Shown here piece after piece: positions 2,606 to 37,955 of a DNA stretch of 64,000 bases. Source of the DNA: Chryseobacterium indologenes (lineage in GTDB: Bacteria; Bacteroidota; Bacteroidia; Flavobacteriales; Weeksellaceae); assembly GCA_016025055.1 (NCBI GenBank), contig CP065590.1:2604001-2668000 (forward strand). Direction: 5' to 3'. Within the stretch, counting starts at the first letter, position 1; every line of letters starts with the position of its first letter. Position numbers and translations under genes: made by a program. The notes under the pieces are model-generated. The model saw only the letters and a program-made list of their open reading frames with translations, was not told where the DNA came from and did not search any database.

Positions 2606-3625
2606 TTATAGATTCATAAACAATTTCGGATTCACCGGAGTATTGTTTTTGTGTACTTCATAGTGAAGGTGAGGCCCTGTAGATCGTCCTGAGTTTCCTG
2701 ATTTGGCAATTACCTGACCTACTTTCACTTTATCATTTACTTTAGAAACAAGTTGTGATAAATGTCCGTAAAGGGTGGCTAGCCCGTTTCCGTGAGAAAC
2801 GATGACACAGTTTCCATAACCTCCCTTTTGCCCGGAAAATATTACGGTTCCGGCTGCAGCAGCTCTTACGTCAGATCCAAAAGCAACAGCAATATCCAGT
2901 CCTTTATGGAATTGCATCTGGTCTGCCTCAGCAGGCGGATTGTTCTTCTCAGCAGGACCAGCTTTTGGGGCATTGGTAGCAACAGTTTGAGCGGTTGTTT
3001 GAGCTGTCGGCGCAGAAGCCACCGGCGCAGCTTTTGGAGTTACCATTACTTTTACCTCCCTTTTATTTCCGTAGCTGTCGGTTAGTTCAACAATTTTTTC
3101 AACAGGTTCAGCTTTGACTTCCGGTTGTGGAGCTGCTACTGCCGCTGTTGAGGTTGAATGAGATTTCACCGAAGCGTAGACTGTTTTAAACGGAATAGGA
3201 TTTTTTCTCACCCCAAAGTTTGATGAAATATAGCCGTCTGTAGGCATTCCCAGCGGTACCTCCATCAATTTTTTCTGAAGGTCCATTAAGTATTGACTAT
3301 ATCGGTTGGCTTGCTTGAAAAGGTAAATGGAATTTGAAATACTGTCCTGGTCGAGCATCATCAGCTTTTCATTAGAAATATCTTTGGATCTGAGGAAAGA
3401 ATTCAGCTGACCAACGGTCTGATCTACCAGAGTAAGATCAGTTTTCATTTTTAAATAATCTACACTGTCTTTTTCAGTGTTTATTTTCACAAGGTTTACT
3501 TCATAGTTCTTGTCATCTTTTTCAGAAAACAGTTTGGCAATAAAGATACCTTGGCCAAAAACTACTAGTAAAAGTCCTCCGAGAAGAATATTTACGTTCT
3601 TTTTGCTGTTTAGAAATTTTTTCAT
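2606..3625 (-). CDS. Membrane-anchored M23 family metallopeptidase
   Basis: 339 residues, a likely peptidoglycan endopeptidase facing the periplasm. One membrane segment lies at about 12-31, then a helical stretch (about 40-125). The M23/LytM domain starts at GYISSNFGVR (131-140) and resumes at FHKGLD (239-244). His240, Asp244, His288 (YGHLS) and the H-L-H pair 319/321 supply the zinc ligands and catalytic His. Between the two parts sits an insert of roughly 90 residues (about 148-237), rich in Ala, Pro, Val and Thr and interrupted by a short charged segment. The gene is transcribed alone, with a TAAATTTG box upstream and a terminator after it. Confidence 0.9.
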   Translation of the reverse strand: MKKFLNSKKNVNILLGGLLLVVFGQGIFIAKLFSEKDDKNYEVNLVKINTEKDSVDYLKMKTDLTLVDQTVGQLNSFLRSKDISNEKLMMLDQDSISNSIYLFKQANRYSQYLMDLQKKLMEVPLGMPTDGYISSNFGVRKNPIPFKTVYASVKSHSTSTAAVAAPQPEVKAEPVEKIVELTDSYGNKREVKVMVTPKAAPVASAPTAQTTAQTVATNAPKAGPAEKNNPPAEADQMQFHKGLDIAVAFGSDVRAAAAGTVIFSGQKGGYGNCVIVSHGNGLATLYGHLSQLVSKVNDKVKVGQVIAKSGNSGRSTGPHLHYEVHKNNTPVNPKLFMNL

Positions 3626-3663
3626 ATTTCTTCAGTATGGGTAAAACGGTTTTTTTAAGACTG

Positions 3664-3671
3664 CAAATTTA
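3664..3671 (-). promoter_or_regulatory. -7 box of the M23 gene
   Basis: On the minus strand TAAATTTG, 39 bases before the M23 start, matches TAnnTTTG. I see no clear TTG at the right distance. Confidence 0.45.
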
Positions 3672-3823
3672 CATAAAAATAATCTTTGGTGATTATTCTT
3701 AAGTAAAATTCAGTTTTTTCTGTATCTAACGTCAGATTTTATATTTAATTGTGTATGCATAGCATTTTTTTAAGAATATGGTTTTTATCATATTTTCGAG
3801 CCCTGTGTTAAATCTTTGTTTAA

Positions 3824-3831
3824 TATATTTG
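3824..3831 (+). promoter_or_regulatory. -7 box of gpsA
   Basis: TATATTTG matches TAnnTTTG. Transcription would begin near 3838, which rules out the in-frame TTG at 3816 as a start and supports the ATG at 3849. Confidence 0.55.
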
Positions 3832-3848
3832 CAGTTCACATTCCAATT

Positions 3849-4889
3849 ATGGCTAAAAAGAAAATAATTTCAGAATCTTCGAATCCAAAAAAGAATAAAA
3901 AGGATGTTTCTGTTGGGGTAGTAGGAAGCGGAAGTTTTGCTACTGCTATCGTAAAAATGTTGGTTGAAAACTGTAAAGTAGTACATTGGTGCGTAAGAAG
4001 TGAGTTTGTAAAAGGGGCTATTGAACTTCGTGGGCATAATCCTACCTACCTTACTGCTGCCCACTTTAACCTTAAAAGTTTAAAACTGACGACAGATATC
4101 AATGAGCTGGTCTCTGCCTGCGATGTCATTGTCTTGGCAACACCTTCGATTTATCTTTCGGATGCGTTGGATAAAATGACGTGTGATTATTCAGACAAAA
4201 TTTTTGTTTCAGCTATTAAAGGGATTATTCCGAGAGTAAATGATGTGGTTGCTCATTATCTTCGTGATGAATTTAAAATAGGATTCAGAAATCAGGCTGT
4301 AATTGCCGGTCCTTGCCATGCAGAAGAAGTGGCAATGGAGAGGCTGTCATATCTTACGATTGCAACAGTAGAAGACGAGATCGCTGAAAAGCTTGAAAAT
4401 GTTTTCAGTTCAGATTTTATTAAAGTACATACGAGTAAGGACATTTTAGGTAACGAATACAGTGCTATTCTTAAAAATATTTTTGCCATTGGAGCGGGTA
4501 TTGCCAGTGGGTTAGGATATGGAGACAACTTTACGGCAGTCTTTGTGTCTAATGCCATCCGTGAAATGGAAACTTTTCTCGAAGCAATTTATGAAGCTCC
4601 CAGAGATGTAAACGAAAGTGCTTACCTTGGAGATCTTTTGGTAACGGCCTATTCTCTTTTCTCAAGAAACAGGAACCTGGGTAACCTTATTGGAAAAGGA
4701 TACACTGTAAAATCAGCTATTCAATCCATGAATATGGTGGCAGAAGGGTATTATGCTGCTGACTCGATTTATAAAACAGCAAAGCAGAAGAATCTTAAGT
4801 TACCTATCATTGATACTGTTTATGCTATTTTATATGAAGGTAAAAATGCAGAGAAGCAATTTAAAAAACTGACGGCAAAGCTGAATTAA
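3849..4889 (+). CDS. gpsA: Glycerol-3-phosphate dehydrogenase [NAD(P)+]
   Basis: 346 residues from the chosen ATG. It reduces dihydroxyacetone phosphate to sn-glycerol 3-phosphate for phospholipid synthesis in the cytoplasm. After a lysine-rich N-terminal extension (1-19) comes the nucleotide-binding motif GVVGSGSFA (23-31), then IVLATPS, the SAIKGI segment, AGPCHAEEVA, and the C-terminal helical domain with LKNIFAIGAGIASGLGYGDN bearing the conserved lysine. The start at 3849 is preferred because a promoter box overlaps the upstream in-frame codons. It is a single-gene unit, convergent with the surface-protein operon. Confidence 0.95.
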   Translation: MAKKKIISESSNPKKNKKDVSVGVVGSGSFATAIVKMLVENCKVVHWCVRSEFVKGAIELRGHNPTYLTAAHFNLKSLKLTTDINELVSACDVIVLATPSIYLSDALDKMTCDYSDKIFVSAIKGIIPRVNDVVAHYLRDEFKIGFRNQAVIAGPCHAEEVAMERLSYLTIATVEDEIAEKLENVFSSDFIKVHTSKDILGNEYSAILKNIFAIGAGIASGLGYGDNFTAVFVSNAIREMETFLEAIYEAPRDVNESAYLGDLLVTAYSLFSRNRNLGNLIGKGYTVKSAIQSMNMVAEGYYAADSIYKTAKQKNLKLPIIDTVYAILYEGKNAEKQFKKLTAKLN

Positions 4890-4892
4890 AAA

Positions 4893-4920
4893 AATAAGGT
4901 CCTGCAGTGAGAACCTTATT
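4893..4920 (-). terminator. Terminator of the minus-strand surface-protein operon
   Basis: AATAAGGT pairs with ACCTTATT across a 12-base loop; on the minus strand the stem runs straight into a T tract. It lies beyond the gpsA terminator as seen from the surface-protein genes. Confidence 0.65.
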
Positions 4921-4934
4921 GTAAAATATATCTG

Positions 4935-4966
4935 AAACTTAAGCATTCCTCATATGCTTAAGTTTT
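4935..4966 (+). terminator. Terminator of gpsA
   Basis: A 12-base-pair stem (AAACTTAAGCAT with ATGCTTAAGTTT) and a T run, 46 bases after the gpsA stop and just before the 3' end of the convergent gene. Confidence 0.85.
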
Positions 4967-4967
4967 T

Positions 4968-5744
4968 TTATTGACTCATTTTAGTAATAATAAGAGCCAG
5001 TGAGGATCTTATATTCAGGTTGCTGGCCGTAAATCCGTTTCCTGTATCAAATTCAAATTTTTGTCGGATCGTAGTAGGTGCTGCTAACGTTAAAAAATAA
5101 CTTCCCTGGAAAAATGTGAAAGAACTTGATAACTGACACATTCTGTTCGTCTCCGTAATATTTGTACCGGTCGCCGCATTGATCATGTATGAGCGCGTAC
5201 AGGTAAAATTTTGTGAAAGGTATTGGGTATTAGCCGTTCCATTATTATTACCTCCATTACTTGAATCTACAGAATAGCGAAGGATATACGTTCCGGCAGG
5301 TAATGTAATGGTCGAATTATCTGCTCCCAGTGAAGCACCGGTAATTTTATTGGCGGCTACACTAAAGTTGGCCAAAGTATTATTGGTACTTCCTGTAGGA
5401 ATTAAAACACCGGAATTAATGATCAGCGACATCGCCTGAGGCTCAGAACCCGAAAGAATAGCCCGTTGCCACTGGTTCCTGATCCAAATATAGTATCCTT
5501 TCGGAAAAGTGGAGGCTCCTCCTTTGTTATAAATCATCAAACCATCTGCCGGATTGGCTATAGGAGTTGCTGTACTGTTGAGTACAGTGAGGTCATATTG
5601 AGGAAAAAGTACTCCTTTATTAGAAGAAGTGATGTCCAAAACACTGCTTGCGCTGGGGGTGCTTGTATTGATACCTACTTGAGCATTAACGGGTATGGCC
5701 AATAGTATGGTAAACAGACAAACAATATAAAAATAATTTTTCAT
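4968..5744 (-). CDS. Secreted flavobacterial protein, third of three paralogs
   Basis: 258 residues with a signal peptide ending near NAQ (21-22). The N-terminal region carries a signature shared with the two genes upstream: QVGINTSTPSASSVLDI, then SNKGVLFPQ, NPADGLMIYNKG and YYIWIRNQWQR. In Flavobacteriia this signature is common in exported proteins of unknown function and resembles the entry to phage tail-spike-like proteins. The rest (about 100-258) is predicted beta-rich, with TGASLGADNSTITLPAGTYILRYSVDSS, and could be a jelly-roll-like domain. No T9SS sorting signal is obvious at the end. It is the last gene of the operon, 11 bases after its neighbour. Function unknown. Confidence 0.75.
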   Translation of the reverse strand: MKNYFYIVCLFTILLAIPVNAQVGINTSTPSASSVLDITSSNKGVLFPQYDLTVLNSTATPIANPADGLMIYNKGGASTFPKGYYIWIRNQWQRAILSGSEPQAMSLIINSGVLIPTGSTNNTLANFSVAANKITGASLGADNSTITLPAGTYILRYSVDSSNGGNNNGTANTQYLSQNFTCTRSYMINAATGTNITETNRMCQLSSSFTFFQGSYFLTLAAPTTIRQKFEFDTGNGFTASNLNIRSSLALIITKMSQ

Positions 5745-5755
5745 TGTAATACTGA

Positions 5756-6577
5756 TTATTGATTAAGAGCTGATCTTTGAATGTCAACTTTTGCATTCGT
5801 TATAATGATTTCACCATTGTTTGGAGCAGTGCCTCCGGCTCCCATCTGATAGGTGCCTCCCGCATCATGAGCGATGGAAGGAATTAATGTGATAGGAGTA
5901 GCAGAGGTAGAGACAAATGAAAAGCTCATATTGAGTGTATGCGTTTTATTACTTGCTATTGATTGAGCATTGATGCTGATGGTCTTTCCATATACATTAC
6001 CCGTTACCGGATCTACCAGCCTGACCAGGTACTGATGCAAATGAACCTGGGTTCCTCCGATTCCCGCTGTTGTGCTTTCCTGGGTTGTTCTGATATTCAG
6101 ACATACGTTGACTAAATAACCACTGTTTCCGGGAAGAGTGATTGCACCTGTTGCTGCATTATAAGAACCTCCGATATCATTAGACATCACAGTAAAAGCT
6201 GCATCGTTGAAGTTTTTAAATGTACCGTTCGCGAAACTCCCCAATACGGTATAATCCGTACTGCGCTGGAGCATCATATAGCTTACCAGATTATACGTAT
6301 CTGCCATTTGTGTCCATTTATTGCCTTTCCATACATAAATTCCGGGGCTGATTGAATTACCTTTATTATACACCACAAGACCTTCCGCAGGATTATTAAC
6401 TGGTGTAGTTTTGTTTAATATATCGATTATGTCAACTCTGGGAAGAAGAACTCCCTTATTGCTAGATTCAGATATTTCAAGCGCTGCAGAGCTGTTGATG
6501 GTTGTTTTACCTATTCCTACTTGAGCATATAGGGTCTGTGCTATGATAAATAATAGCAGGATATAACTTTTTTTCAT
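5756..6577 (-). CDS. Secreted flavobacterial protein, second of three paralogs
   Basis: 273 residues, signal peptide 1-18 (ending LYA). It shows the same N-terminal signature as its neighbours: QVGIGKTTINSSAALEI, SNKGVLLPR, TPVNNPAEGLVVYNKG and YVWKGNKWTQM. The C-terminal part (about 105-273) is beta-rich and Gly/Thr-rich, with AITLPGNSGYLVNVCLNIRT that parallels ITLPAGTYILRYS of the downstream paralog, so all three may present a similar beta domain. Spaced 12 bases from the gene before it and 11 from the one after, consistent with one transcript. Function unknown. Confidence 0.75.
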   Translation of the reverse strand: MKKSYILLLFIIAQTLYAQVGIGKTTINSSAALEISESSNKGVLLPRVDIIDILNKTTPVNNPAEGLVVYNKGNSISPGIYVWKGNKWTQMADTYNLVSYMMLQRSTDYTVLGSFANGTFKNFNDAAFTVMSNDIGGSYNAATGAITLPGNSGYLVNVCLNIRTTQESTTAGIGGTQVHLHQYLVRLVDPVTGNVYGKTISINAQSIASNKTHTLNMSFSFVSTSATPITLIPSIAHDAGGTYQMGAGGTAPNNGEIIITNAKVDIQRSALNQ

Positions 6578-6589
6578 AGGTCGGCTTTT

Positions 6590-7696
6590 TTAAAGTTGTG
6601 ATATTTTAATATAAGACCCGTTAGCAATGACATTGACCAGGTCATAAAAGGTGCTGTTTTGCATTCTTCCTAATCTCAACCTCAATCCTCCGATGATATT
6701 ACCATCAGCATTACTCGGAACACTGTAATAATAAGACCAGGTTGCCAGATGGTTTGTATTCACTTTTGAAACTATAGGAACTTCTTTTCTGGTGTTGGCA
6801 CCTCCGGTGAATGTATTGGTCGTATTGTTGTACGTATCATTCGTAAAATCGATGAAATATCCCATCAGATAATAGGTGCTGCCTGACAAAGGTGCAGTTC
6901 CTCCCTGGCCGGCCGGATTCTCCTGAGGAGAATTGAGATTCAGGTTTACTTCCACCAGGTAATTTCCTTGCGGAAGAACCAGTGAATAGCCTCCCGAATT
7001 TGGGTTCTGGACAACTTTGAAACCATTGATGTTGGATACTCCGGAAATTGCAGGGGGATTTACTAAAAGCTGAGTGTTTGCACCCGCGACTGCATTGTCT
7101 AATGCAGATAGTGATCCCGTAAAATCGAGGTAAGCAACTTTAGGTGTATTTTCTGCATCAATGTTACTTTGCCATTGATTGGTTGTACTGTTGAAAGTAT
7201 GCAGTGTTTTATTGTTGCTGTTACTACCTCCATTATATGCAATAAGACCATTGGCAGGAGATGCCACAGGACTGGTAGTGCTGCTTAGGTTGGCAATATT
7301 CAGATTGGGAAATAACATTCCTTTATTTCCTCCCGATATCACAACGGCAGGAGCTGTACTGTAGCCGCTTCCTCCATTGTTGATCGTTACACCCGTAATC
7401 ACACCATTGGAAAGTATAGCTGTAGCACGTGCTTTGTTGCCACCGTTTACAACGGATCCTCCTCCATAGAAGTTGACCGTAGGGACAGTGGTGTATCCAC
7501 TTCCTCCATTGGTAATGGTAATCCCTGTTACTGCTCCTCCTGATATGGTAGCAGTGGCAGTAGCTGGAACTCCATTGAAATTTTCGATATGCAGAATTGC
7601 ACTGGGGTCCGGTTTGGACGTATTGATTCCTACACTTCCGCTTTGGGCAAATGCCACTGTTGCGAAAAACGTACACACGAAGTTAACAATTTTCAT
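6590..7696 (-). CDS. Secreted flavobacterial protein with internal repeat insert, first of three paralogs
   Basis: 368 residues, signal peptide ending near FAQ (17-18). It opens like its paralogs (GSVGINTSKPDPSAILHI), but the signature is interrupted between about residues 45 and 125 by two related units of roughly 40 residues, each containing ITGVTINNGGSGYST-like text (TGITITNGGSGYTTVP and TGVTINNGGSGYSTAP). The signature then resumes with GGNKGMLFPN, SPVASPANGLIAYNGG and TNQWQS. The C-terminal part is beta-rich, with GGYSLVLPQGNYLVEVNLNL matching the beta domain of the other two. First gene of the operon. Function unknown. Confidence 0.75.
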   Translation of the reverse strand: MKIVNFVCTFFATVAFAQSGSVGINTSKPDPSAILHIENFNGVPATATATISGGAVTGITITNGGSGYTTVPTVNFYGGGSVVNGGNKARATAILSNGVITGVTINNGGSGYSTAPAVVISGGNKGMLFPNLNIANLSSTTSPVASPANGLIAYNGGSNSNNKTLHTFNSTTNQWQSNIDAENTPKVAYLDFTGSLSALDNAVAGANTQLLVNPPAISGVSNINGFKVVQNPNSGGYSLVLPQGNYLVEVNLNLNSPQENPAGQGGTAPLSGSTYYLMGYFIDFTNDTYNNTTNTFTGGANTRKEVPIVSKVNTNHLATWSYYYSVPSNADGNIIGGLRLRLGRMQNSTFYDLVNVIANGSYIKISQL

Positions 7697-7758
7697 CCTT
7701 GTAATGTTTTACGAAATAATTTTAATTTAAATACACTGGAATATGGTATTTATTTATT

Positions 7759-7766
7759 GAAAGATA
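7759..7766 (-). promoter_or_regulatory. Possible -7 box of the surface-protein operon
   Basis: On the minus strand TATCTTTC differs from TAnnTTTG only in the last base, 63 bases before the start of the first surface-protein gene. Confidence 0.4.
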
Positions 7767-7801
7767 CATATAAAAAACATTCTTTTTGTATTTTTTAAAT
7801 A

Positions 7802-7867
7802 GATTTTTATCGATAAATGTGATTATTTATCAATAAAATGTGATTTTTAATCAATATTTATTAATGT
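7802..7867. repeat. Three imperfect tandem units with an ATCnATAAA core
   Basis: Units begin with GATT at 7802, 7821 and 7842 and end in ATGT. The first contains the perfect palindrome TTTATCGATAAA and the second the near palindrome TTTATCAATAAA. They lie upstream of the surface-protein operon within the 514-base gap before mqo; the rest of that gap is AT-rich with no gene that I can see. Regulator binding is possible but unproven. Confidence 0.45.
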
Positions 7868-8210
7868 TTTATCACCTTTTATTGAAAAAAAGTACTGGCG
7901 TAAAGTATTATGGTTGAAGTATTTTATATCGTGAACTTAAATAAACTTAAGTTTTTATAAAATTTTACCCTTTATGCAACCCCTTCATTAGTGAATTAAA
8001 TACTTTGAAAATGTGGTATTTTTTTATTTCAAATAAGACTTCTTGTCATTGTCTTTATGAATCATTTCAATGAAACTATATTGAAACTTTCCATTGCATT
8101 TTGTTGTGTATGTAAGAAGTCGTTTTACTTCAAAAAATAACGTGTTAAAATCGTTAAACGCGTTTCTGTTTTTAAAACTTTTCCCGAAATTTGAAGTAAA
8201 ATTTAAAATT

Positions 8211-32995: not shown

Positions 32996-34650
32996 TTAAT
33001 GTCCTTTTTCTTTCATGATTTTATTTAATCTTTTCAACATAGAAAGGCCTAATAGTGTAGCAAATATTAACAAACCGAAATTTACAAGAAAATAATTCGT
33101 CTTGTTTTCATAGCTGTACCACGTACTGGCAAGGATTCCTGAAAGTTTGTTTCCTACAGAGTTGGCCAGAAAAAAACCACCCATCATCAATGCTGTAATT
33201 CTGGCTGGTGAAAGCTTTGAAACAAAGGAAAGTCCCATTGGTGAAAGGCATAATTCGCCGATAGTAATTACCCCGTAGCTGGCAACAAGCCATAAAGGAG
33301 AAACTTTTACCGATCCATTATCTCCGGCCATTACAGCAAGAACCATTACCAGGCATGATAAGCCTGAAATAAATAACCCCAGAACAATCTTCGTAGGAGT
33401 TAAAGGCTCTTTTCCTTTTCTTCTCAGCAATGCCCAGAACCCGACGATCACCGGAGTCAGTGCGATTACCCAGAATGGATTAATAGACTGGAAAAGTTCT
33501 GTATTGTATAAGTATACTTTATTTTCAGGGTTCTTTTCTAAGACAGCACGTTGTTCCGGAGATATATTTTTAAAATAAACATCTTTGCCTGTTTCTTTTT
33601 AGTATCACCATTTTCATCCTTCTGAGATCTGAACTGATTATCGTAAACCGGAGTTTCTTTGTCTTCATAGCTCTTGCCATCCACCATATAGATACCTTCT
33701 AATGGTTTTTCCAGGGAAGCAGGAACACTTCTGTCGGTGTAATAATTTGCCCATCTTGTCAGTGCAGTACCATTTTGTTTGAATACAGCCCAGAAGAACA
33801 TACTGATCAAAAAGACAGACAACAATGCTCCGATTGAAGCTTTTTCCTCAGGTTTAGCCTTGAAATAAAGGGAAGCATAAAAGTAAATAACAGGAATACA
33901 GGCGAAAATAAAAGCGTCAGTACTGTCACTTCCAAAAATATTGTTCGGAATAAACCAGCCGATTGCTCCTGCTGCAATAGCGGGAACAAATACTTTGATA
34001 AGGATCTCTGAAAGCTTAGTATCTCCTTCCTGTACCGGCTTCATCTGAGCGGCGTGGAGATAATGTTTTCTACCGATGGTAAAAATAACCATACCGATCA
34101 GCATTCCTACTCCGGCAGTAATGAAAGCTTCACCCCAACCGAATTTATTACGCATGAATGCTGCAATAATATTACAGATAAACGCTCCGATATTGATTCC
34201 CATGTAAAAAATATTATACCCGGAATCTTTGTTGGCTTTATAAGGTTCTTCAGAATATAGATTTCCCAGAAGGGTTGAGATAGTAGGCTTAAAGAAACCA
34301 TTTCCGATAATAATTAATGCTAAAGAAGTATAAAATAAAGGTAGATCTTTGAAAACTCCCATTCCGATATATCCTGCAGCCATTAAAAAACCACCCAGAT
34401 AGATCGATTTTATATATCCTAAAACCCTGTCTGCCAAGAAACCTCCAATAAAAGGAGTAAGATAAGTCAATGCAATATAAGTCCCGAAAATGTCATCGGC
34501 GGTTTTATCCGGTAATCCAAGGCCTCCTTTCATACCGGCAGGCTCGATAACATACAAAACAAAGATTCCAAGAATCAGGTAATACCCGAAACGCTCCCAC
34601 ATTTCTGTAAAAAAGAGAAAAGGCAGCCCTTTAGGATGTTTAGTCTTCAT
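32996..34650 (-). pseudogene. POT/PTR2 family peptide transporter, third copy, frameshifted
   Basis: From the ATG at 34650 (a TTG at 34674 overlaps the -7 box and is not the start) the text reads MKTKHPKGLPFLFFTEMWER, with the ExxER motif at Glu16-Arg20, and NGFFKPTISTLLGNLYSEE. The frame breaks at a minus-strand A5 run (33596-33600): as written it turns into KKKQAKMFILKIYL and stops at 33538. With a sixth A it continues KKETGKDVYFKNISPEQRAVLE into the remainder, including NPFWVIALTPVIVGFWALL. The restored length is 551 residues. A missing base in the sequence is likely. Confidence 0.88.
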
Positions 34651-34671
34651 ATAATCAATTTTCAAATTTCC

Positions 34672-34679
34672 CAAAATTA
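34672..34679 (-). promoter_or_regulatory. -7 box of the third POT gene
   Basis: On the minus strand TAATTTTG matches TAnnTTTG, 21 bases before the ATG at 34650. Confidence 0.5.
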
Positions 34680-34794: not shown

Positions 34795-35175
34795 TTATTT
34801 ATTTGATTTCATTTTCAATTCTTGGTTTTCTTTCTTTAGAATTTCATTTTGCTCTTTTAGTATAGCAATGTAATCTTGTAGGTTTTCTAATAAGGAGCTA
34901 GGAATATTAAAATGTTGATTGTAATAGTTTCCAGAATTGTCATTAAATGTCGAATTATCATTGTGTACTATTCTCAATTCTTTCTCTTCCTTAATATCTT
35001 CAACCGGAACTTCAAGAGCTGCAGCCAATTTTTGCCATTCCTCATCATGAATTCTTACCTCCCCACGTTCTTTGCGGGAATAATTAGATGGATCTGTTGA
35101 TAGTATTTTAGCCATTTTTTCTTGGGATATACCTTTTTGTTTACGTAAATTTCTAAGTTTTTCTTGAACCATCAT
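34795..35175 (-). CDS. XRE-type helix-turn-helix regulator with coiled-coil tail
   Basis: 126 residues. Residues about 5-62 are the XRE helix-turn-helix (LRNLRKQKGISQEKMAKILS, then STDPSNYSRKERGE and WQKLAAALEVPVEDI). The last ~35 residues form a coiled coil (LQDYIAILKEQNEILKKENQ), likely for dimer formation. A polar middle (NDNSTFNDNSGNYYNQ) links them. It is divergent from the Cys-rich precursor gene, with 150 bases between their starts, so it is the natural candidate regulator of that locus. A set of TGCA-rich repeats (TGCAAAATATGCATTTATT) lies in the shared promoter region and could be its operator (inference). Confidence 0.88.
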   Translation of the reverse strand: MMVQEKLRNLRKQKGISQEKMAKILSTDPSNYSRKERGEVRIHDEEWQKLAAALEVPVEDIKEEKELRIVHNDNSTFNDNSGNYYNQHFNIPSSLLENLQDYIAILKEQNEILKKENQELKMKSNK

Positions 35176-35275
35176 TTTAAATGTTTTTTACAAATGTGCA
35201 AAATATGCATTTATTCTGCAAGAAAATTACAATAAAATTGCATTGGTTATTTCACTGTTGTTTGATTTTTATTTT

Positions 35276-35283
35276 TAGCTTTG
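35276..35283 (+). promoter_or_regulatory. -7 box of the Cys-rich precursor gene
   Basis: TAGCTTTG matches TAnnTTTG, 42 bases before the precursor ATG. A TTG at 35258-35260 is 15 bases upstream, slightly closer than ideal. Confidence 0.5.
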
Positions 35284-35325
35284 GCAATGTCAATAGTGAC
35301 ATAAAATCATTCTAAAAAAAACATC

Positions 35326-35499
35326 ATGAAAAAAATTGATTTGAAAAAATTGAAGGGAAGCTTGTCCAGAGACGAGCAGAGAACAATTAAGGGAGGGCTT
35401 ATTGCGGCTAGTGGATGCGGATGCACTAATGCTGCCTGTGCAAACACTCATAATGGTAATGGAGATTCTTATTGCAATGGTACTTTTTGCTGTGGATAA
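35326..35499 (+). CDS. Gly-Gly-leader, six-cysteine peptide precursor (bacteriocin-like)
   Basis: 57 residues, missed by length filters. The leader, about 24 residues (MKKIDLKKLKGSLSRDEQRT, then IKGG), is helical and ends in a Gly-Gly site (23-24), as in precursors cleaved by C39 peptidases. The core (25-57) is small, Gly/Asn-rich and holds six cysteines at 31, 33, 38, 50, 55 and 56 (CGCTNAAC, then YCNGTFCCG), enough for three disulfides. An A-rich stretch upstream serves as the ribosome-binding region. It faces the XRE regulator and is followed, after a hairpin, by a VKOR/thioredoxin fusion gene that could oxidise the cysteines. Function unknown; bacteriocin-like is an analogy. Confidence 0.82.
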   Translation: MKKIDLKKLKGSLSRDEQRTIKGGLIAASGCGCTNAACANTHNGNGDSYCNGTFCCG

Positions 35500-35521
35500 T
35501 CACTGAAACTTTTTTAAAATG

Positions 35522-35550
35522 GCAACGGGAAACTGTTGCTATTTTTTTTG
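35522..35550 (+). terminator. Hairpin between the precursor and the VKOR gene
   Basis: GCAAC pairs with GTTGC around GGGAAACT, followed by TATTTTTTTTG. It may end or attenuate transcription, making much more precursor mRNA than enzyme mRNA. Confidence 0.7.
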
Positions 35551-35571
35551 AACAATAAAGATGCATTAGAG

Positions 35572-37131
35572 ATGACACATAAAAGTTATATAGCTGTTAT
35601 GAATTATCTGGATGATAATAAAATATATATTGATAGGGATGAGTTCGAACTTCAATTGGAAGGGCATCCTGATTTTCCAAGTCTTCTGGCATTTTCTGAT
35701 GCTTTACACTTTTTCAATATTGAAAATTACAGTTACAGAATAGATAATGATGAAAAAGATTTTTTACCTGAGGATTTCCTGGCCTTAGTAAAAGGAGAGT
35801 TGGCAGTGGTGAATAATAAAGATAATAAAATAACAGTCAATGGTTCGCAAACGGACGATTTTTTTTCAGAATGGGAAAATATAATACTTATTGTAGAAAA
35901 ATCTGAAGACCAGTTTTACAAAAAATCAAAATTTGAGTATACATATGTCAACTGGGGAATTGTAGCGCTGGTGTTTCTGTTTCTTTTCGCATATGATCAC
36001 TCCAATCTGATTTTGAAATTGATCTTTGCCGCTACCGGACTTATCGGCTTCATCTTTGCCCGTGAAGCCTACAAAAAAACTCATGGTAAAGGAACATTCA
36101 TTCCGGTTGGAGTATGTAAAAGCAATTATCTGAATACGGATTGTGACCTGGTTTTTAATTCGAAAAAATGGAAGATTTTTAACAAAATAGATTTATCTGA
36201 GATTTCATTGTTGTTTTTTACGAGTCAGATCGTGTGTTTTGTTTTACTTGGCCTGATAAAAAATGTTGAATTCTTTTTTGAGACCTATCGGTATGGGTTA
36301 TTTGCATTTATACCCGTTGCTGTTTTATCATTATACTATCAGATATTTGTTGTTAAAAAATACTGTCCTGTCTGCATGGTAATCATAGCTTTAGTAGGTA
36401 TTCAACTGGTGGCTGCCAATCTTATCTCCTTTACGAGTAAGAAACCGGACATAAGTGCTGTTCTGTTTTTAATCGGGAGCTTGGGTTCGCTCATTGTTCT
36501 GATGAATTTTAGGATAAAAAATCAAAATGCCCAGAAAGATGAAAATACACTTAAAAGAAATTTAAAATTCAGAAGAAACTATCAGTTTTTCAAAAATAAT
36601 TTGTCTTTACAAAAACGGTTGGTCAATACTGATTTTTCAAGTGCTTTTGTATTTGGAAACGAAAATGCAGACCAGAATTTGACCTTTGTGACTAATCCCT
36701 TTTGTAAGCATTGTAAAGAATTTTATCCTGTTTTTCTAAAGCTGGTTAAAAAGTATTCAGATGAGTTGAGAATCACTATTTTTTTTGATATAGACCTTAG
36801 CAGGGATGATCTGGATAATAGAACGGTTCATGTAAATCTTACCAATATTTATATCAATAGCGAAAATAAAATAGAATTTCTGGAAGCGTTAAGCGGCTGG
36901 TATAACGTTCAGGGATATAGTGAAGACAAAAGTGGCTGGTATCAAAAGTATTCTAAATATTTTGGAAACCCGGAGAGTGCACTAGCACTATTAAAAGGAC
37001 ATGAAGAATGGGTAAGCAGCAATGGTGTGCATTTTACACCCAATATCTTTATCAATGACACGGAGTACCCGGTTCAGTACGAAAGAGCAGATCTTGAGTT
37101 CTTTATTCCGGAATTATTATCTGAAAATTAA
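35572..37131 (+). CDS. C39-like domain fused to VKOR and thioredoxin modules
   Basis: 519 residues from the ATG at 35572; the open frame goes up to a TTG at 35536 inside the hairpin, so that start is unlikely. Residues 1-110 resemble a C39 peptidase (LEGHPDFPSLLAFSDALHFF, later VKGELAVVNNKDNKITV) but lack its catalytic Cys and His. Residues about 125-310 carry membrane helices of a vitamin K epoxide reductase family domain, with Cys182 and Cys191 (VCKSNYLNTDCDLVFNS) and the CPVC motif (265-268). The C-terminal domain (about 355-519) is thioredoxin/DsbA-like with CKHC at 378-381. VKOR regenerates oxidised thioredoxin-like partners using quinone. It probably oxidises the adjacent peptide. Confidence 0.85.
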   Translation: MTHKSYIAVMNYLDDNKIYIDRDEFELQLEGHPDFPSLLAFSDALHFFNIENYSYRIDNDEKDFLPEDFLALVKGELAVVNNKDNKITVNGSQTDDFFSEWENIILIVEKSEDQFYKKSKFEYTYVNWGIVALVFLFLFAYDHSNLILKLIFAATGLIGFIFAREAYKKTHGKGTFIPVGVCKSNYLNTDCDLVFNSKKWKIFNKIDLSEISLLFFTSQIVCFVLLGLIKNVEFFFETYRYGLFAFIPVAVLSLYYQIFVVKKYCPVCMVIIALVGIQLVAANLISFTSKKPDISAVLFLIGSLGSLIVLMNFRIKNQNAQKDENTLKRNLKFRRNYQFFKNNLSLQKRLVNTDFSSAFVFGNENADQNLTFVTNPFCKHCKEFYPVFLKLVKKYSDELRITIFFDIDLSRDDLDNRTVHVNLTNIYINSENKIEFLEALSGWYNVQGYSEDKSGWYQKYSKYFGNPESALALLKGHEEWVSSNGVHFTPNIFINDTEYPVQYERADLEFFIPELLSEN

Positions 37132-37137
37132 ATTATT

Positions 37138-37955
37138 ATGAAAGGCTTATTATTTATATTGCTGGGAACATGTATGATGTTTGCTCAGAACAACAGGTTC
37201 ATCTATGAGGTGAAATACAAGAAAGATTCAACCTCAAAAGATATTACCAGGGAAAATTATTATCTGGATATCACAAAAGAGGATATAGCCTATTATAACA
37301 GATTGAATTATATTAATGACTCAATATTTAGTGTTACCGGGCAATATACATCTGGTAGGTTGACTTCTTTTATTATCAAAAAGAACAAAAGTAATATTTA
37401 TCAAAACTATGAATATATTGGAGATGCAAACTACTATAAATTATCCGAAGAACCCAAACAACAGTGGAATATTACAGACAGTGTAAAGATTTCTAATAAT
37501 TTACGGATTCAAAAAGCTACTACTCGGTTCGGAGGAAGAAACTGGATCGCATGGTTTACAAAAGATATTCCAATGGCCTACGGACCTTATAAGTTTAACG
37601 GATTGCCGGGATTGATTATGGAATTGTATGATACAAAAAGAATTATTATTTTAAGGTGATTAAGAGTGAAAAGATTGCGGATGATTATCAACGTAATTCA
37701 TTAAATAATTATATCCTCAGAGCGATTTCCGTTACTCAGAAAGATTTAAATAAACTAAGGCTGGACCTCTATTCCAATCCTTTTAAATATATATTTAATG
37801 GAAATCTGACTATGCGCGAAGGGCAAAAATTACAGCTTGATGACGGTACAATTCTCACCAAAGAACAACTGAAACCAGCAGAAACCAACGAAAGAAAAAA
37901 ATTAAAAGCCTTTAATAATCCGATAGAGTTAGATAAGGCCGTAAAGTATCCTTAA
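37138..37955 (+). pseudogene. GLPGLI family protein, frameshifted
   Basis: An exported protein with a short signal peptide (MKGLLFILLGTCMMFAQ). It matches the GLPGLI family through the hallmark FNGLPGLIMELYD; the rest is beta-rich (YEVKYKKDST, YYLDITKEDIAYY). The frame breaks just after the hallmark at the A5 run 37635-37639: with one more A the text continues KKNYYFKVIKSEKIADDYQR and runs to 37955, giving 272 residues. As written it stops at 37659. A missing base in the sequence is likely. It starts six bases after the VKOR/thioredoxin gene, so it belongs to that operon. Family function is unknown. Confidence 0.85.

Follow-up and report, generated by a model that had tools for sequence, protein, structure and literature searches.

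A candidate leader-guided disulfide enzyme encoded beside Gly-Gly cysteine-rich peptides in Chryseobacterium indologenes and other Bacteroidota

Peptides with a double-glycine (Gly-Gly) leader have been described before together with a thiol oxidoreductase and an exporter. In Bacteroidetes, the bacteroidetocin regions encode a Gly-Gly peptide with cysteines, a thiol oxidoreductase, a protein with five transmembrane (TM) segments and a peptidase-ABC exporter (Coyne et al. 2019, PMC6671954). The formation of the disulfides was ascribed by the authors to the thiol oxidoreductase, and Bacteroides is said there to be without general disulfide machinery (PMC6671954). The present analysis concerns a locus of Chryseobacterium indologenes in which a cysteine-rich Gly-Gly precursor is followed by the gene for a membrane protein, the fusion, that joins a C39-like domain, a VKOR domain and a DsbA-like thioredoxin domain. 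The locus occupies positions 34,795 to 37,955 of a stretch of 64,000 nucleotides, which was analysed as a whole and is called the window hereafter (assembly GCA_016025055.1, contig CP065590.1, positions 2,604,001 to 2,668,000); the source genome is a single contig of 4.92 Mb. The fusion is proposed to be a dedicated, quinone-coupled and leader-guided disulfide enzyme for Gly-Gly cysteine-rich peptides, acting at the cytoplasmic face before export, a reading that we consider fairly probable.

The system shares with the bacteroidetocin regions its occurrence in Bacteroidetes, the Gly-Gly precursor with cysteines, the thiol oxidoreductase and the peptidase-ABC exporter (PMC6671954). In the window the oxidoreductase lies beside the peptide as it does there (PMC6671954), whereas an exporter is absent from the gene region and a GLPGLI gene is present; a second cluster of the same genome does have the exporter in its gene region. 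The five-TM protein and the oxidoreductase of the bacteroidetocin regions are separate genes, and the passages that describe them mention neither a C39-like domain nor a VKOR nor an orientation (PMC6671954). The cores differ in size as well, with 42 residues and four cysteines in bacteroidetocin (PMC6671954) and 33 residues and six cysteines in the window. The sublancin operon, with the order sunA-sunT-bdbA-sunS-bdbB, is similar in its leader-cutting ABC export, in the thiol-disulfide oxidoreductases of the operon and in the hairpin after the precursor gene, which is the terminator structure of sunA (PMC4336743). Sublancin differs from the window system in being Gram-positive and S-glycosylated, and in that BdbA and BdbB are separate proteins (PMC4336743). 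The combination of Gly-Gly peptide, thiol oxidoreductase and exporter is already known from bacteroidetocins and sublancin; the candidate leader-docking fusion and its predicted cytoplasmic orientation are new here. Among the matches listed from the open-licence PMC literature, no description was found of a C39-VKOR-thioredoxin fusion, of its link to peptides or of its orientation, and to our knowledge no C39-like domain is known on BdbA or BdbB.

The fusion protein and the peptides beside it

The fusion gene lies on the forward strand at 35575..37131 and encodes 518 residues. The reading frame extends further upstream, to a TTG at 35536, whereas in the relatives the gene starts at the ATG at 35575. 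Pfam matches were obtained with VKOR (E 7.5e-11) and Thioredoxin_4 (E 9e-7); the VKOR score (PF07884) of 42.8 bits is above the cut-off of 27.5, which places the protein in the VKOR family. The VKOR domain (residues 150-279, 36022..36411, forward strand) has an extra span on either side and carries C181, C190, C264 and C267, and the DsbA-like thioredoxin domain (approximately residues 350-518, 36622..37128, forward strand) carries C377 and C380. All six of these cysteines were invariant in 64 aligned rows. At E<=0.01, Pfam recognized VKOR in all 64 aligned members, Thioredoxin_4 in 63 and Peptidase_C39 (PF03412) in 34, with a best Peptidase_C39 value of 7.9e-8.

The N-terminal domain (N-domain; residues 1-111, 35575..35907, forward strand) of the window copy alone gave no Pfam match, Peptidase_C39 included. 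When a profile of the N-domains was compared with the C39 domains carried by exporters at the same loci, the profile-profile comparison gave 95.7% (E 9.4e-9, 98 columns), and four control profiles (the nucleotide-binding and membrane parts of the exporter, the VKOR part and the thioredoxin part) gave E values of at least 0.05. The N-domain is classed on these profiles as a homologue of Peptidase C39. The alignment starts downstream of the helix bearing the catalytic cysteine, and the window copy is without this helix. The catalytic cysteine has no counterpart, as no cysteine is conserved in the N-domains: 65 of 94 have none, the window copy is Cys-less, and the commonest cysteine column is filled in 10 of 94.

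The precursor gene (35326..35499, forward strand) encodes 57 residues, namely a leader of 24 with Gly-Gly at 23-24 and a core of 33 with six cysteines. In window-type peptides the final 27 residues of the core were strongly conserved across species, and the spacer behind Gly-Gly varied in both length and sequence (13 loci). A preliminary description of the locus had named this precursor, the membrane fusion with a Cys-less C39-like domain, a divergent XRE regulator, a GLPGLI protein and the lack of an exporter in the window, and had concluded that export must be encoded elsewhere. All the parts were recovered, the C39 relationship through family and profile-profile comparison. The predicted cytoplasmic orientation, the complete exporter cluster in the genome, the place of GLPGLI as a conserved member of the cassette and the frameshift in the GLPGLI gene go beyond it.

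Relatives of the fusion were gathered by genome scans, with 77 named loci as the main set, and peptides were searched up to 2 kb upstream or 2.5 kb downstream of the fusion. The preliminary description had made its proposal depend beforehand on such relatives adjoining Gly-Gly-leader peptides, and it was found that they usually do. With a strict pattern, a single leader pattern, a Gly-Gly peptide with four or more cysteines was present on the same strand by the fusion in 57 of the 77 loci, compared with 0/77 on the opposite strand, 0/385 in resampled flanks (first-order Markov samples, not exact shuffles) and 0/68 in flanks 6-8 kb upstream; one of these 68 far flanks held a Gly-Gly frame with fewer than four cysteines. 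A looser pattern, which additionally admits Gly-Ala, revealed a peptide near the fusion in 62 of the 77 loci, and either a peptide or a catalytic peptidase-ABC exporter was found in the examined flanks of 72. Both L118 and L126 have a peptide that the strict pattern misses, the leader of L126 ending in Gly-Ala. The peptide-bearing loci include Chryseobacterium, Flavobacterium, Tenacibaculum, Aquimarina, Bizionia, Dokdonia, Roseivirga and a Saprospiraceae bacterium.

In a sample of the phylum, VKOR was present in 42 of 198 genomes. The VKORs with an N-domain outside the source genome had a peptide or an exporter nearby in 18 of 18 cases (peptide 12, catalytic exporter 14), whereas among the VKORs without it a peptide was found in 1/34 and an exporter in 0/34 (p 4e-13 for the contrast). 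In the sole peptide-paired VKOR without an N-domain, the N-domain sits in a separate upstream frame. Two genomes from outside the class that have the N-domain, G150 and G161, showed both peptide and exporter, and G214, of the same family and without the N-domain, showed neither.

Among 173 distinct cores found with the strict pattern, 158 had an even number of cysteines (at least two), 14 an odd number (at least three) and one a single cysteine. After removal of similar cores, which left 132 from the 77 loci, the ratio of even to odd was 122:9 (p 2e-26). The leaders were more similar to each other than the cores (0.67 against 0.28, leader higher in 24/24 loci with at least three peptides), a difference that is partly built in by the search pattern itself; at ten pattern-free leader positions the values were 0.52 and 0.28, and the leader was higher in 23 of the 24 loci. 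In these leaders Leu occupies -12 and usually Ile or Val occupies -4, residues that the search pattern in part prescribes, and -7 is in most cases Gln; among the candidate leaders of the looser pattern other hydrophobic residues occur at -12. The leader-guided disulfide formation put forward in the preliminary description is supported in part: the even cysteine counts, the conserved leaders, the dead C39 fold and the intact VKOR and thioredoxin cysteines fit it, and from these we infer docking and oxidation.

Membrane orientation

The structure model of the whole fusion had a mean pLDDT of 83.5 and a pTM of 0.63 (64 sequences). Spans were assigned from the secondary structure of the model, not from its coordinates. 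Two predicted helices, 122-140 and 145-169, separated by a join of four residues, precede the VKOR cysteine loop, and four further long helices bring the number of spans to six. With two spans ahead of the cysteine loop, parity places the N-domain on the same side of the membrane as the VKOR cysteines and the thioredoxin domain.

The distribution of lysine plus arginine (K+R) was determined in 96 fusions, which came from the 77 named loci and from 14 phylum loci and consisted of 94 of the 97 N-domain matches (480-600 residues), the window copy and the second copy of the genome. On the active-site side the means were 2.70 before span 1, 5.53 in the cysteine loop, 2.11 before the CxxC and 7.71 after the last span, and the three loops of the opposite side had 0.25, 0.27 and 0.66. 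The active-site side was the richer in 96 of 96 (11.6 against 1.2, with up to 12 span-flanking residues counted there). When an anchor-based net charge was determined by the same procedure for both sets, this side was positive in 93 of the 96 fusions (one opposite, two ties) and in just 2 of 24 VKORs without N-domain, the other 22 having the opposite pattern; this control used 30 of the 34 such VKORs, the split VKOR and three with a long N-terminal extension having been left out, and 24 of the 30 were analysable. Proteins of this kind, VKOR or VKOR-thioredoxin without N-domain, have the same cysteine pairs and often a thioredoxin-like domain. In two split forms of the fusion (L075 and L076), the thioredoxin protein consists of a K/R-free N-tail, one span and a basic segment.

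An ordinary periplasm-facing VKOR has one span before the cysteine loop and an active-site side poor in K/R, and by prediction the fusion has neither. According to the positive-inside rule, positive charges mark the cytoplasmic side, and the charge pattern consequently predicts an enzyme that faces the cytoplasm and is oriented oppositely to ordinary VKORs. The C39-like domain, the VKOR active site and the thioredoxin domain are all predicted to face the cytoplasm. Since the C39 domains of exporters work on the cytoplasmic side, this orientation fits leader docking.

The same role could be played with oxidation in the periplasm. The VKOR and thioredoxin domains would then face outwards and the core would be oxidised on leaving the exporter, one N-terminal hydrophobic segment being non-spanning or the N-domain lying outside. 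The bacterial VKOR systems known to us all face the periplasm, which speaks for this arrangement. It is also in line with the disulfides of bacteroidetocin being credited simply to a thiol oxidoreductase (PMC6671954). Against it stand the two helices before the cysteine loop and the charges, which are distributed the opposite way to those of VKORs lacking the N-domain. Inspection by eye, with no predictor, gave no obvious signal sequence at the N-terminus, which makes an external N-domain unlikely. Periplasmic oxidation is possible, but we regard it as rather unlikely.

A VKOR working on the cytoplasmic side has reportedly been studied in Aeropyrum pernix; that enzyme is archaeal, and we know of no leader docking or peptide export connected with it. 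The title of the study states that the topology promotes disulfide formation in two compartments (Hibender et al. 2017). Besides, two short VKORs without N-domain, at L233 and L253, were seen to have a likewise reversed charge pattern, and are possibly other inward-facing VKORs.

Proposed mechanism and leader docking

In the proposed mechanism, the dead C39-like domain would dock the leader of the precursor in the cytoplasm, and the DsbA-like domain would oxidise the cysteines of the held core. Members of the VKOR family re-oxidise a thioredoxin-type partner and pass the electrons to a membrane quinone; the VKOR domain would do so here with the DsbA-like domain. A peptidase-ABC exporter would then cut the leader and export the folded core. 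Docking and oxidation are predicted at the cytoplasmic face because the VKOR cysteine loop comes after two spans and the active-site side carries the positive charges. For the window, an exporter encoded elsewhere would act in trans, most simply that of the complete cluster of the genome. The weakest step concerns the GLPGLI protein, which is LolA-like and would probably handle or sense the peptide in the periplasm. In its full form, the proposal describes a leader-guided disulfide synthase, scattered in Bacteroidota, whose dead C39 domain grips the Gly-Gly precursor while an inverted VKOR-DsbA module acts cytoplasmically and an exporter ships the folded peptide, with more than 100 dissimilar cores behind one kind of leader; we hold the case for this full form to be evenly balanced.

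Several points weigh against cytoplasmic, leader-guided oxidation. Disulfide formation in the reducing cytoplasm would be unusual, and the positive-inside rule is statistical. The K+R means of the two sides come from loops of unequal length, those of the opposite side being shorter (6-11 residues against 8-42). The strict scan gave no peptide at 20 of the 77 loci, and by the looser scan five of the 77, both Kordia among them, had neither a peptide nor a catalytic exporter. In the phylum comparison, which comprises 52 matches outside the source genome, two of the 18 VKORs with N-domain are neighbours at one locus, and the contrast is confounded by lineage because 32 of the 34 without N-domain come from other classes. 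Outside the GLPGLI type, a catalytic exporter was found in the examined flanks of 35 of 61 loci, the 61 being those outside the 16 counted by a GLPGLI filter that misses L123, whose GLPGLI frame exists. A sequence search of the PDB with the N-domain profile returned no C39 chain. The whole fusion model gave 602 Foldseek matches, and the 50 listed are all DsbA-like and concern the C-terminal part; the best among the matches listed were BdbD, ScsC and DsbA.

The leader positions described above can be set beside LahT150, in which a hydrophobic groove binds the Gly-Gly leader at -4, -7 and -12 (PMC6363468). Dead C39-like domains in toxin exporters have been given a role in substrate recruitment (PMC6363468); those domains belong to an ABC transporter, whereas here the domain is joined to a disulfide-forming enzyme. 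The N-domain could instead bind the exporter or serve as an assembly domain, with the substrate chosen by proximity or by its cysteine-rich core. Since the C39-aligned segment begins past the catalytic helix, part of the leader site could indeed be missing. Nevertheless, the leaders are conserved while the cores diverge, and at the 17 loci L112-L128 peptide and fusion occur together, the examined flanks showing no catalytic exporter. An N-domain with no part in leader recognition seems unlikely to us.

Gene arrangement and spread

The fusion was found in 94 of 98 Chryseobacterium genomes, against 21 of 296 genomes of the class (10 of 165 genera; up to five candidates were scored per genome in the class-wide scan), and is thus near-universal in the genus and scattered elsewhere. 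The window fusion is 90% identical to the copies of C. aquifrigidense and C. candidae and 89% identical to a C. indologenes copy found in the genome scans. Its type (at least 72% identity) occurs in nine of the 98 genus genomes, including the source genome, and all nine carry another fusion too. No peptidase-ABC exporter was found in the window, all four C39 exporter-type matches of the genome lying outside it. The second fusion of the genome, 27% identical to the first, is followed by a four-cysteine Gly-Gly peptide, a peptidase-ABC exporter of 730 residues with an intact cysteine motif, and HlyD. The window cassette is an exporter-less satellite, with the complete cluster located elsewhere in the genome.

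Twenty core loci of the genus were picked by hand, and in 17 of them an exporter of 730-748 residues lies beside the fusion. In the other three, the exporter was cut at the end of the stretch, the stretch ended at a contig edge, or exporter fragments were present. The strict pattern gave a peptide with at least three cysteines in 10 of the 20, and a looser look gave Cys-rich candidates in eight of the remaining ten, with none in L083 and L098. Close to one core fusion-exporter cluster (L087, genus genome G067, approximately 2750-6450), a Gly-Gly Cys-rich peptide was seen paired with a GLPGLI gene three times in succession.

In the window, the peptide, fusion and GLPGLI genes lie in this order on the forward strand, downstream of the divergent XRE regulator (34795..35175, reverse strand; HTH_3 E 5e-11). 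The regulator also occurs beside several related loci, for example L068, L071, L072, L120, L124, L127 and L128. Between peptide and fusion there is a stem-loop with a T-run (35516..35545, forward strand), terminator- or attenuator-like, with a fold of -15.9 kcal/mol in the window. A consensus scan gave no entry for this hairpin; it was evidenced by folding and conservation, being kept in 13 of 13 loci compared, and may serve to make the peptide more abundant than the enzyme. The GLPGLI gene (37138..37955, forward strand) is frameshifted in this assembly into two overlapping frames, 37138-37659 and 37656-37955. The neighbouring gene of a POT-family peptide transporter (32996-34674, reverse strand) was likewise seen as two open reading frames.

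Based on the GLPGLI frameshift and the missing exporter, the locus could be regarded as a decaying remnant. However, the order peptide, fusion, GLPGLI was observed in 17 of the 17 nearest named loci (L112-L128), comprising the window type and sister types, and all 17 have the exporter-less form; in one of them, L124, an HlyD gene and part of another fusion lie within 5 kb. Over 13 loci, 16 of the final 27 core codons showed synonymous variation only, with five residue-changing and six invariant. The split POT gene is a single frame of 559-584 residues in four of four relatives checked, and GLPGLI is a single frame of about 272 residues in relatives, so both splits are likely indel errors of the assembly. 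We consider decay improbable. It is very improbable that a radical-SAM or other enzyme for ribosomally synthesized and post-translationally modified peptides (RiPPs) acts on the peptide and that the fusion is incidental: the leader scored 19.7 bits against TIGR04149, for which the curated cut-off is 25, and peptide and fusion are found paired in several genera. The radical-SAM RiPP assignment was dropped on this score.

The first piece of the GLPGLI gene scored 136.7 bits with TIGR01200 (curated cut-off 50), which assigns it to this family. For a model of the protein of a relative (pLDDT 79.5), the structural resemblance is to part of PNGase F-II (E 2.5e-8 at best) and to the folds of LolA, LolB and RseB (E values from 3e-5, with TM-scores of 0.3-0.5). 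Judging from the model, the protein may act in the periplasm as a carrier, binder or sensor of the peptide. A general tie of GLPGLI genes to Gly-Gly peptides was rejected, since a Cys-rich one lay directly upstream in 1 of 11 loci of the source genome (the window's own peptide being omitted, as the fusion intervenes) and in none of the 30 best loci of the genus; the link is restricted to some subgroups.

Split fusions occur in seven genus genomes, two of which (L075 and L076) were looked at. Both have a C39-like-VKOR protein of 284 residues and a separate membrane-anchored thioredoxin protein of 220 residues, with a GLPGLI gene next. The C39-like-VKOR protein stops after the fifth hydrophobic segment, and the two proteins could correspond to the five-TM protein and the oxidoreductase of the bacteroidetocin regions. 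Two further peptide loci were observed. L029 (G000:C1:4508000-4520000, approximately 4235-7833) holds six Gly-Gly leader peptides, mostly Cys-rich, in two groups within 3.6 kb. At L028 (G000:C1:1916000-1930000, approximately 4814-8055), a Gly-Gly Cys-rich peptide is followed by two proteins with no Pfam match at E<=0.001 and a family 2 glycosyltransferase, possibly another modified-peptide cluster.

No DsbB and no VKOR beyond the two fusions were found in the source genome, yet its relatives encode many exported Cys-rich peptides; a leader-docking enzyme would explain how these are oxidised. Such an enzyme could become a tool for the production of disulfide-rich peptides, and the N-domain serves as a search handle for new ones, as the 132 non-redundant cores illustrate. 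If the cytoplasmic action is true, disulfide formation would be a leader-directed modification made before export, and peptidase-ABC exporters would have to pass folded, cross-linked cargo.

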